Source of the DNA: Haloplanus natans DSM 17983 | GTDB taxonomy: Archaea; Halobacteriota; Halobacteria; Halobacteriales; Haloferacaceae | Length of the DNA stretch: 64,000 nucleotides | Assembly (NCBI RefSeq): GCF_000427685.1 | Contig: NZ_ATYM01000003.1 | Span: forward strand, 124,001 to 188,000 | Direction of reading: 5' to 3' | In this document: in pieces, positions 12,377 to 17,929 of the stretch | Position numbering within the stretch: position 1 is the stretch's first letter | Layout of the letters: each line of letters opens with the position of its first letter | Program-made: the position numbers and the translations under genes | The notes under the pieces: model-generated | Told to the model about the DNA's origin: nothing | Databases searched by the model: none | The model's input: only the letters and a program-made list of their open reading frames with translations

Positions 12377-13331
12377 GTGTGTCGTCGTGTATTGCGGTGA
12401 ATTTCGCGGCGAGTTCGTTGATCCCGTCTCGAAGCGTGATTTCAGGGGCGTAGCCGGTCCGCCCGATCCTGTCGAAGTTGACGTGATACGACGGCCCGGG
12501 ATGCTCGTCCCTGAGGTAGGTGATGTCGAGGGCCGTCCCGAGTTCGTCTCGGACGAGTCCGGCAATCTCGCTGATCTGGTAGTTGGCGTCGTTAGCGCCG
12601 ACGTTATAGATCAACTCATCCCACTGCGCCGGCTGGAGCGCGGCGTGCTTGTACGCACGCGCCGCATCACGGACGTGAATGAACGGCCGCCAGTTCGTCC
12701 CGTCGCCGTAGACGGTGAGCGGACGGTCGGTGAGGCCCCGGAAGACGAACCGGTTCACGACCAGATTGAACCGGACGCCCGGCGAGTAGCCGTAGTTCGT
12801 GGCCATCCGCAGCGCAGTCGCGTCGAAGCCGTGCTCGGTCATGCGCTCGCGGAGCAAGGACTCCGAGGCGTGTTTGGTCTCTGCATACGGATTCAGTGGG
12901 TCCGGCTCCGTCTCCTCGGTGATGTTCCGGCTCGCCGCTCGTCCGTAGATGTTACACGACGACGCGAGAACGACGTTGTCGACGTCGAACTTCCCGGCGG
13001 CCGTGAGGACGTTTCGGGTGCCGTCGAGATTCACCGCGACGGTTTCCTCGCGTCGGTCATGGGTACTGTCCGCGCCCGTGATGGCGGCCAGGTGGACAAC
13101 GGCGTCAGCCCCACCCATCGCGGCCTCGACATCGCCGTAGTTGCGAACGTCGCCGCGATGGAAGACGTATCCATCACGCGCGTTGAGGCCGGTCCCAAAG
13201 AGGTTTCGTGGAGAACTCATCGACAGATTGTCGAGGACGCGCACCTCGTCGACCCGCTCGTCCGCGAGGAGTTGTGCCAGGAGTTCGCTTCCGATGTACC
13301 CGAGCCCGCCCGTGACGAGGACGCTAGTCAT
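12345..13331 (-). CDS. NAD-dependent epimerase/dehydratase (extended SDR)
   Basis: The 328-residue extended SDR has TGGLGYIGSE at residues 7-16, the strand SSCNIYGRA, and YAETK as the catalytic YxxxK. It is related to, but clearly distinct from, the downstream SDR, so this is an old duplication or separate recruitment. It overlaps the upstream intein-bearing gene by 8 bases and the downstream gene by 32 bases. Probably converts a nucleotide sugar used in surface glycan assembly. Confidence 0.88.
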   Translation of the reverse strand: MTSVLVTGGLGYIGSELLAQLLADERVDEVRVLDNLSMSSPRNLFGTGLNARDGYVFHRGDVRNYGDVEAAMGGADAVVHLAAITGADSTHDRREETVAVNLDGTRNVLTAAGKFDVDNVVLASSCNIYGRAASRNITEETEPDPLNPYAETKHASESLLRERMTEHGFDATALRMATNYGYSPGVRFNLVVNRFVFRGLTDRPLTVYGDGTNWRPFIHVRDAARAYKHAALQPAQWDELIYNVGANDANYQISEIAGLVRDELGTALDITYLRDEHPGPSYHVNFDRIGRTGYAPEITLRDGINELAAKFTAIHDDTHDRALPTRPA

Positions 13332-15588
13332 CCGTCGCCGTCGCTGCCTCTCCGTCGACCGACTGCTGGCGGTTCTCGAGCACGTCCGGCAGGAAGCGGT
13401 CCTCGTAGGCGGTGATCGTCTCCTGATAGCGCGTCAGCGTATCGAGGATGTCATCGACGCCGGCTTCGAAGCTCTGTGCCTGCTCGTCGATCAGGCCCAT
13501 ATACCGGGTGTTTTCGATCTCCATCTTGTGGCTTTCGTCCTCGTCGCGCGGGTTCTCGACGTGTTCGACCTCCACATGCAGCCCGTGGTCGTCTCCGACC
13601 TGTTCGATCGTCGTGGCAATCTCGACGATGCTGATGGCACGCGTGACCTGATTGTACACCACGTGGTCGGCCTCGCGCTCGTCGGGGGCCATCAGGGCTA
13701 CCTCCGCGAGCCCCTCGACGGCGTCCTCGAGGCTGATGAACGGCTTGCGCTGTGCGCCCTTCCCATAGACCGTGACGGGGTAGCCGGCGACGGCCTGTGC
13801 ACAGAAGCGATGCGCAACGGTCCCGAAGTAGTAATCGAAGTCGAAGCGGGTTTTGAGGCGGTCGTCAGCGCGCGTTTCCTCGGTCTCGGAGCCGTAAACG
13901 ATGGCCGTCCGGACGTCGGAGATCGGCACGTCGAACTGTTTGTTCGCCAGTCGCATATTGGCCGCGTCAAAGCTCTTCGAGTTCCCACACCAGATCGGTT
14001 TTCCGTTCCGACGCACCAACACGATTCCGCCGTCGACCGTACAGCAGTAGACGGAGCCATCGTACTTCTCTCGCCCGAACGCGTTACCCCCTTGGTTCGT
14101 CTGGAAACACCACGTGGGGCTAATACCGACCCGGTATTCGCGTTTCGTTTGGTAATTGTTTTCGTCACTTCTGTCGAGGTCGTGGACAGTTGCTCCGTAC
14201 CCCAGTTTGAGTGCTATTTCTTGGACATCGGCGGCGAACCGTTCGCTCGACGTATAGAAGGTCCATCCGCGGCCGTTGTTAGTTCCGTCTCCTTCGATGA
14301 GTGTTTCGAGCAGAACTTCGAGGTGGTCCTCGGACAGATTCCGCATCCATTCCGGAATGTGCTTTTCATCCTTGAATTGACGGAGATACGTCGCCAGCTG
14401 GTGATCGCTGAGTTCGATGTATTCCTGTTTGGAATCGATCTGGTGTCTGACTTTCTCGCGGTCGAAGCCAATATCCTCGAACAGCTCGATCAGTTCCTTC
14501 GCTCCCGTCTGGTAGATCCGTACGTTACCCGTTTGCTTGGCCTTGCCGACCGTTCCCTCGGTGAGCCACCACCCGAAGAACCGGATCCATGCGTCCAGTT
14601 CGATCTCCCGCGACTGGAGCTTGATCATCTTCGTTTGATTCACTTCGCGATCGCACCCCGGAAGTTCGAAGGTGTCCGGATCGGTCCCCTCCCAATCAGG
14701 GAACGACGCGAAAAAGCACGGATGTTTGTACTCATCGCCCAGCTGATCGGCCTCGACGATTTCCCGGCGATTCTCGAACGTGGCGTGACCACCCTGTGCC
14801 CAACTCGTCCCGATTAGCATACGATGGTTCGGCGTCACTTTCAGGTCGACACGTCGGTTCGAAACGGTGACCATCTCGCCAGAGTAGTCGTACTCTTGGA
14901 TGTCTGATGGGACCGTCCAGCCGGTATCCCCAGTGTCGGCGTCCATCGCCATCACTTCGTCCCGTTCGCTCAGCTCTTCGAATGGCTTCCAGCCGTCTTT
15001 CGTCAGAATTTCCGTCTCATCGTCGTAGCACTGGTGGTACCAACTCCCTGCCATAGAGGGAAAGGGGACTTCGTCCCGTTCGCCCTGGTTCTCCATCGTC
15101 GCGCCACCCTCGGGGATGGGGAACTCCGGCGCGCCGTAGACGCCGGTCGTCGTGGTTTCGATGAAGTGGGTGTCCGTCAGACCGTGTTCTTCGAGGCCCC
15201 AGAGGAGGTTGCGGGTCGCCTGCAGGTTGTTTCGCTGGGTGAAGTTCGCGCGCTCGCCGTTGATCTGGGAGTACGGCGCGGAGGGTTGGGCCGCCGCGTG
15301 GACAATCGCGTCCGGTTCGTGGACTTCGAGGAGTTGGTCAGTGAACTCCTTCTCCGTGAGGTCGCCCTCGACGAACGAGAGGTTGGTGAGGCCGTGGACG
15401 GCTTCGGCGGCGTCGAGACGGGCTTCGATATCCGCGACAGGGGTGGCGGAGACGCTGCCGATCTCTTCGACCCACTCTCGGCGACTGAAGTCGTCAACGA
15501 GAACGACACGGTCGTCGGTTCTCGAGGCGATACGAAGTGCTGTTGGCCAGCCGACGTAGCCGTCGGCACCAGTCACTAGCAGCGTCAT
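13324..15588 (-). CDS. SQD1-like NAD-dependent epimerase interrupted by an intein
   Basis: The 754-residue precursor contains 404 extein residues and a 350-residue intein (residues 187-536). The extein has TGADGYVGWP at the N-terminus and resembles UDP-sulfoquinovose synthase-like SDRs (SQD1/Agl3 type): the long N-terminal part with HAAAQPSAPYSQ and the GSWYHQSK active site fit that group. After splicing, YHQ joins SK to make the catalytic YHQSK, so enzyme activity should require protein splicing. It is the first gene of a three-SDR operon and has a TATA-like box 33 bases upstream. A sulfonated sugar product is a guess. Confidence 0.88.
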   Translation of the reverse strand: MTLLVTGADGYVGWPTALRIASRTDDRVVLVDDFSRREWVEEIGSVSATPVADIEARLDAAEAVHGLTNLSFVEGDLTEKEFTDQLLEVHEPDAIVHAAAQPSAPYSQINGERANFTQRNNLQATRNLLWGLEEHGLTDTHFIETTTTGVYGAPEFPIPEGGATMENQGERDEVPFPSMAGSWYHQCYDDETEILTKDGWKPFEELSERDEVMAMDADTGDTGWTVPSDIQEYDYSGEMVTVSNRRVDLKVTPNHRMLIGTSWAQGGHATFENRREIVEADQLGDEYKHPCFFASFPDWEGTDPDTFELPGCDREVNQTKMIKLQSREIELDAWIRFFGWWLTEGTVGKAKQTGNVRIYQTGAKELIELFEDIGFDREKVRHQIDSKQEYIELSDHQLATYLRQFKDEKHIPEWMRNLSEDHLEVLLETLIEGDGTNNGRGWTFYTSSERFAADVQEIALKLGYGATVHDLDRSDENNYQTKREYRVGISPTWCFQTNQGGNAFGREKYDGSVYCCTVDGGIVLVRRNGKPIWCGNSKSFDAANMRLANKQFDVPISDVRTAIVYGSETEETRADDRLKTRFDFDYYFGTVAHRFCAQAVAGYPVTVYGKGAQRKPFISLEDAVEGLAEVALMAPDEREADHVVYNQVTRAISIVEIATTIEQVGDDHGLHVEVEHVENPRDEDESHKMEIENTRYMGLIDEQAQSFEAGVDDILDTLTRYQETITAYEDRFLPDVLENRQQSVDGEAATATDD
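13981..15030 (-). other. Intein with LAGLIDADG homing endonuclease, inside the SDR active site
   Basis: The intein spans precursor residues 187-536. It starts with Cys (block A CYDDETEILT), has a block B TPNH at intein residues 66-69, and ends WCGN with Ser as the first C-extein residue. The penultimate residue is Gly instead of the usual His, a known variant. Two dodecapeptide-like motifs, FFGWWLTEGTVG (about 151-162) and LLETLIEGDGTN (about 240-251), indicate a LAGLIDADG homing endonuclease that appears complete. Endonuclease and splicing residues look intact, but activity is inferred. Confidence 0.9.
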
Positions 15589-17240: not shown

Positions 17241-17929
17241 GGTGCGCCCGTCTGCATCGATCCGTTTGCTGCTCGGGTTTTTGTGAGTGCTGGACAGACC
17301 TTGTCGGCTGATCGAGAGAGTTCTAGCAACGGATCGGTACGACTCGCCATCTTCTAGTCGTTCGAGTGCGTCTACGAGTTCAAAGTAACTGTCCTCACCG
17401 TCGTCAGGTTCGACGATGGGCTGTAGGTCCCCGCCGTCGTTGTGTCGGAATCCTGCAGGGACGTTTCGACCTATTTTCCTTGGTCGCTCGCTCGCTTCAC
17501 GCCGGCCTTCACGCGCCGTATCAATTGTTGTCGCTCTTGCTGATACACCATGCCGACGATATCAGCGACGGACCGACCGGTGCCGTCCGGTTTGACCTTC
17601 TCGACAGCTCCGTCCGTGATGTGAATTGTGACGCCGTGTTCCTCACAGGCGTCGAAGAATTCCTGCAGCGTTGCACCGCGCCGAGAGATCCGGCTGATCT
17701 CCCAGACGATGACGTGGTCGAACTCGTCATTTCGGATCGCGTCCAGGAGGGCGTTGAATTGTTCGCGCTCGTCGTTCGATCCGGATTCGATATCGACATA
17801 CTGTTCGACCCTGTCTTGGGGGAGGTCATGCCCGTCGATGTACCGGGTGATCGAATCGCGTTGGTGCTGGTCGTCTTGTCGATCTGTAGAAGGGCGAATG
17901 TACGTCCCGACTTTCCCCGCGTTCTCCAT
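17241..17929 (-). pseudogene. Serine resolvase, frameshifted
   Basis: The first 152 residues form a resolvase N-terminal domain: GTYIRPSTDRQDD with the catalytic Ser, then VWEISRISRRG and the YQQERQQ helix. Translation then stops at TAG after SDQGK. The continuation is readable one frame over: KIGRNVPAGFRHNDGG, then LERLEDGESYRSVARTLSISRQGLSS, which is the expected C-terminal helix-turn-helix. Loss of one A in the AAAA run at about 17473-17476 explains the break. The natural 3' end also appears lost at the junction with the GT2 gene. It may still make a short catalytic fragment without its DNA-binding domain. Confidence 0.75.

Follow-up and report, generated by a model that had tools for sequence, protein, structure and literature searches.

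What is the 350-residue stretch that parts the catalytic tyrosine from the catalytic lysine of an SQD1-like enzyme in Haloplanus natans, and can the enzyme work while the stretch is in place? The gene sits on a 429-kb contig, 64,000 nucleotides of which (positions 124,001 to 188,000) make up the window, the whole stretch of DNA analysed here. Its reading frame is open across the whole insert, and its features are the following.

13324..15588, minus strand: precursor reading frame (754 aa), coding for an SQD1-like SDR enzyme with an intein inside it
15031..15588, minus strand: N-extein, residues 1-186, with the C-terminal end GSWYHQ
15145..15147, minus strand: codon of catalytic Thr148, placed by the SQD1 alignment
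15037..15039, minus strand: codon of catalytic Tyr184 of the YxxxK motif, placed by the SQD1 alignment
13981..15030, minus strand: intein, residues 187-536 (350 aa), recognized by its motifs, its predicted fold and the empty sites in 139 orthologues
15028..15030, minus strand: codon of Cys1, the first splicing nucleophile, invariant in 26 inteins
14824..14835, minus strand: block B, TPNH, intein residues 66-69 (no variation at T66, P67 and H69 among 26 inteins)
14554..14583, minus strand: LAGLIDADG motif 1, RFFGWWLTEG, with the acid E158
14284..14313, minus strand: LAGLIDADG motif 2, LLETLIEGDG, with the invariant acid D248 (Pfam LAGLIDADG_3)
13981..14052, minus strand: blocks F and G, VYCCTVDGGIVLVRRNGKPIWCGN, with a penultimate Gly and the terminal Asn350
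13978..13980, minus strand: codon of Ser+1, the second splicing nucleophile (all four intact carriers have Ser here; 132 of the 139 empty sites have Thr)
13975..13977, minus strand: codon of the catalytic Lys, Lys538 in the precursor and Lys188 once spliced, placed by the SQD1 alignment
13324..13980, minus strand: C-extein, residues 537-754 and the stop codon, with the N-terminal start SKSFDA

The insertion falls between extein residues 186 and 187, two residues past the Tyr and one ahead of the Lys (YHQ/SK). Excision of residues 187-536 brings GSWYHQ up to SKSFDA and leaves an extein of 404 residues. The reading frame, coordinates, junctions and motifs of the original prediction all hold, the intein running from C187 to N536, exactly 13981-15030, between these two flanks.

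The identity of the host enzyme emerges only when the two exteins are joined. In an NCBIfam search the precursor matched NF041015 (UDP-sulfoquinovose synthase) as two separate stretches, and the joined extein matched it as a single stretch covering model positions 1-379 of 384. The extein has the Rossmann motif of an extended SDR, Pfam Epimerase matching the N-terminal half (E 1e-17), and joining restores the YxxxK. The joined extein also aligns with the Arabidopsis SQD1 structures 1qrr and 1i24 over nearly its whole length (E 7e-74, residues 3-375); its YHQSK faces the YHLSK of the plant enzyme, and the catalytic Thr is conserved. The claim that an intein splits the YxxxK of an SQD1-like enzyme is thus borne out. 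The difference from the plant UDP-sulfoquinovose synthase lies in the score: at 358.5 bits the joined extein falls short of the curated equivalog cut-off of 575 bits for NF041015, so the reaction is not assigned, and we use the label 'SQD1-like'. We infer that the host is an NAD-dependent sugar-nucleotide epimerase/dehydratase of SQD1-like kind. By what is known of SQD1 and of SDRs in general, Thr148, Tyr184 and Lys188 (spliced numbering) make up the catalytic triad. In SDR enzymes the catalytic Tyr and Lys lie on one helix, and the unspliced precursor should therefore be inactive; as deductions from sequence go, this is a strong one.

The insert itself carries the marks of an intein. A match to TIGR01445 (intein_Nterm, NCBIfam) begins at residue 187 (E 2e-4, slightly below its cut-off); Pfam LAGLIDADG_3 passes its cut-off (E 5e-7) and was found in all three inteins tested, and Pfam Hint_2 fails its own (E 1e-3). 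Cys1, TPNH, E158, D248, Asn350 and Ser+1 are common to all four intact carriers of the element. The intein ends in WCGN (intein residues 347-350), followed by Ser+1. Assignment to class 1 rests on Cys1, T66 and H69 of block B, Asn350 with Ser+1, the Hint fold and the existence of intein-free alleles; the penultimate His, a usual but non-obligatory class 1 trait, is absent here, Gly349 taking its place in all four intact carriers. The block F His of some relatives is also missing from all of them (intein residues 324-350, 13981-14061). In an alignment of 26 inteins, a penultimate Gly is the rule among the phage-type relatives. Class 3 was considered and is ruled out by Cys1, by the lack of a block B Trp (TPNHRM/TPNHRT) and by Ser at +1; of the class 3 triplet W/C/T, the block F Cys alone occurs in the SQD1-site inteins. 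That block has an adjacent Cys pair in the intact carriers (VYCCTV), where most relatives have VYCVTV. In all carriers the two LAGLIDADG motifs each keep a conserved acid (E158, D248), as a LAGLIDADG homing endonuclease should.

Structure prediction agrees with the motifs. AlphaFold2 gave a pLDDT of 44 with three input sequences and a confident model (pLDDT 88.6) with 26 related inteins. Foldseek matched this model to whole inteins, TliVMA (7qsu, E 7e-17), PI-SceI and PI-PfuI, and to the endonuclease I-DmoI. The predicted fold would then be a Hint domain with a LAGLIDADG endonuclease, the overall fold of the archaeal and yeast VMA inteins and of PI-PfuI, although sequence identity to these is 10-16% and their host genes are other ones.

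The closest inteins at other sites, those of haloarchaeal PolB and of viral proteins, share 23-38% identity with the SQD1-site intein. Like the known haloarchaeal LAGLIDADG inteins (polB, cdc21/MCM, rir1, udp; Soucy et al., 2014, PMC4071816), the element has a Hint domain with a nested endonuclease, lies in frame at a conserved site of its host gene and has a patchy distribution that suggests horizontal transfer. It differs from them in its host, an SQD1-like SDR being outside the published list of 24 alleles (PMC4071816), and from the PolB inteins in sequence (at most about 35% identity). The likeness to phage inteins of terminase, ThyX and ribonucleotide reductase (e.g., from mycobacteriophage; PMC5050341) is found in the CYDxETEVLT start, VTPNHRM, VYCxTV, the VRRNGxPxWCGN end with its penultimate Gly, and full-length matches up to E 4e-35. 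Yet identity to them is 25-38%, and the SQD1-site host belongs to cellular sugar metabolism, not to DNA metabolism. In the intein tree, which is unrooted, a single clade (100/99) unites the SQD1 inteins and leaves out those of PolB and of viruses. A viral origin, suggested by the phage-like motifs, was considered and dropped: all that the tree shows is a division of SQD1, PolB and viral inteins into three clades, on which no root can be placed. The H. natans genome also holds a free-standing intein-like reading frame of 398 aa with no host protein (L040:3286-4482; contig C7, about 436285-437481, plus strand). It has a Hint-like N-terminus (GETEVMTTDG) with no Cys1 at the usual place, the motifs LLGWYITEG and LLKGDGD, and the end GRNGRLQWVGTGGAW; across the endonuclease part it is about 30% identical to the SQD1-site intein.

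The same codon is filled in four other haloarchaeal genomes, for a total of five carriers; three of these four are MAGs. Their inteins are 72-79% identical to that of the window: 72% in a Haloferacaceae MAG (L034/L095) and in a Salinirussus MAG (L094), and 79% in a genome of another family of the order (L090) and in the Halobacteriales QH_10_67_22 MAG (L093). The insert is not a product of chance, since other genomes have an insert of the same 350-residue length, at this identity, in the very same codon position. The copy in L093 is broken (L093:5440-7311): the intein ends after VYCCTVDGG, the frame shifts before HDAANM, and the C-terminal splice junction is missing. Either this is a real deletion in a decaying intein, or it is a misassembly, chimeric for occupied and empty alleles. 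A strict peptide-pattern scan of 84,980 species genomes found nothing beyond L093-L095. Of 391 genomes sampled across the class, two showed the N-terminal junction pattern, namely the genome of the window and that of L090, and plasmid records held no copy bearing the insert. The SQD1-like gene of G100 (L035:5025-7306) was considered as a second intein site and rejected: what interrupts it after about residue 70 is an insertion sequence of the TnpB type, and part of the region is masked.

The intein-free alleles that the original prediction proposed to look for are plentiful. We found 139 orthologues with an empty site, where the residues at -1/+1 are LT in 95, QT in 17, AT in 14, MT in 5, LS in 4, and MS, QS, TS and VT in one each. 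Every one of the four intact carriers has the pair Gln-1/Ser+1, which a single one of the 139 empty sites shares (Fisher P 3e-7, uncorrected for kinship). When the junction residues are masked, the extein tree scatters the five carriers, so that five changes are needed, at least three of them forced by supported branches.

The most telling case is L090. It belongs to a supported clade of seven genes, the other six of which are intein-free, and it is 94% identical to its intein-free congener L147. At the junction L147 reads CTC followed by ACCAAGAGC (empty), and L090 reads CAA followed by TCTAAATCA (occupied). The two DNAs are identical for 28 bases before the junction codon and again for 21 bases beyond a patch of about 12 nt to which the difference is confined; the patch is AT-rich, as is the intein. 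It looks like a short footprint of co-conversion and resembles the change at an MCM intein site, where a flanking Pro was converted to Ser (PMC10643990). It could also be an adaptive substitution that followed insertion. A long co-conversion tract in L090 was looked for and rejected, identity to L147 being flat except at the junction. The invasion of L090 looks recent, and homing is presumably active now. The opposite event may be seen in L140 (G365), the sole empty site with the carrier-type YHQSK, encoded CAG followed by TCGAAGAGC as in the window's own gene. L140 is the nearest relative of carrier L094 (91% identical), and it is possibly a precise loss of the intein, or else a naturally suited target. 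The original prediction had also held that the intein occupies a target from which it is hard to lose. This part finds no support: few genomes carry the element, and at one of the empty sites the flanking residues are those typical of occupied ones.

In the four intact carriers GC3 is 0.64-0.70 in the intein vs. 0.82-0.92 in its own extein. Identity between carriers is 67-79% for inteins vs. 72-79% for exteins; an excess of intein identity, as recent transfer would leave, was not seen. As the two have diverged about equally, the class has long carried the element, and recent spread is visible for L090 alone. With synonymous sites near saturation, dN/dS is 0.08-0.12 in the endonuclease segment and 0.06-0.13 in the N-terminal splicing segment (both for pairs with computable dS), and 0.04-0.16 over the splicing segments. 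These values suggest that both functions have been maintained.

On this evidence the element at 13981-15030 reads as a mobile class 1 intein, not an SDR domain. Very probably a LAGLIDADG intein of this class invaded the SQD1-like gene between its Tyr and Lys codons, still splices itself out and homes, and leaves the precursor inactive. The gene would be translated into the 754-aa precursor; an acyl shift at Cys1, transfer to Ser+1 and cyclisation of Asn350 would excise the intein; and joining of the exteins would create YHQSK and with it the 404-aa enzyme, inactive until then. The endonuclease would cut intein-free alleles and so spread the intein; the repair that copies it would carry along a short stretch of flank, and with it Gln-1/Ser+1.

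The insert might instead be a normal accessory domain of an SDR subfamily, as its open frame and its purifying selection would allow. Such a domain would part the catalytic Tyr from the Lys, is carried by just five genomes scattered on the tree, and is absent from the SQD1 structures. The comparisons that could have favored it went the other way: the insert is missing from all 139 orthologues and bears intein blocks and a predicted intein fold, and the joined extein aligns with intein-free orthologues as well as with Arabidopsis SQD1. By the empty sites and the intein blocks this reading appears nearly refuted, and we give it next to no credence. An intein that no longer splices, in a dead or truncated allele of H. 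natans, is very unlikely. The Gly in place of the penultimate His, the missing block F His and the visibly broken copy in L093 would fit it, but no nucleophile is missing, block B is whole, the reading frame runs on unbroken and the splicing segments are under the constraint given above. The Gly, moreover, is typical of the related phage inteins, one of which splices well and was slowed by a change of Gly to His (PMC5050341).

It is harder to set aside, though still improbable, that the intein splices but is an old insertion, inherited vertically, lost in most lineages and no longer homing. Inteins as diverged as their exteins, and an empty L140 with YHQSK next to carrier L094, as after a clean loss, are what such a history predicts. 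One ancestral insertion, however, demands very many independent losses; L090 stands alone among six intein-free genes with its junction patch replaced; and both endonuclease acids are kept at a dN/dS of about 0.1 in that segment. We therefore prefer an intein that is still mobile. A role beyond that of a parasite is a quite unlikely addition to this reading: slow or condition-dependent (salt, redox) splicing could make the intein a post-translational switch for a sugar enzyme of the cell surface. The idea comes from the parting of the Tyr-Lys pair, the vicinal Cys-Cys of block F and the absence of the usual C-terminal histidines.

The setting of the gene is one of sugar metabolism: the flanking genes include two epimerase-like reading frames, a TrmB-like regulator, a nucleotidyltransferase, an SIS/glutamine-amidotransferase protein and glycosyltransferases. 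No SQD1-like orthologue was found in the 11 other genomes of the genus. Adjoining the cluster is a reading frame of 152 aa (17471-17929, minus strand) with a serine resolvase N-terminal domain, which hints that the neighborhood is rearranging.

Inteins in sugar-nucleotide SDRs were expected to be uncommon, and the published record agrees. The halobacterial list has UDP-glucose 6-dehydrogenase, which is of a different enzyme family, and no SQD1-like gene (PMC4071816). A search of the openly accessible literature turned up nothing relevant on an intein in an epimerase, a nucleotide-sugar enzyme, a sulfoquinovose enzyme or an SDR. The element is an ordinary kind of mobile intein, and its host gene is one for which we found no earlier report. 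Nor is the principle of its placement new, native inteins lying close to active sites (mean 8.3 Å; PMC3359363).

What is added to the intein hosts of haloarchaea is a sugar-metabolic SDR, and because the insertion falls between two catalytic residues, the enzyme should have no activity at all unless splicing comes first. With its numerous empty alleles, an invasion that seems recent and left a footprint of about 12 nt, a broken copy and what may be a precise loss, the site opens the gain, co-conversion and loss of an intein to study in one compact natural system.
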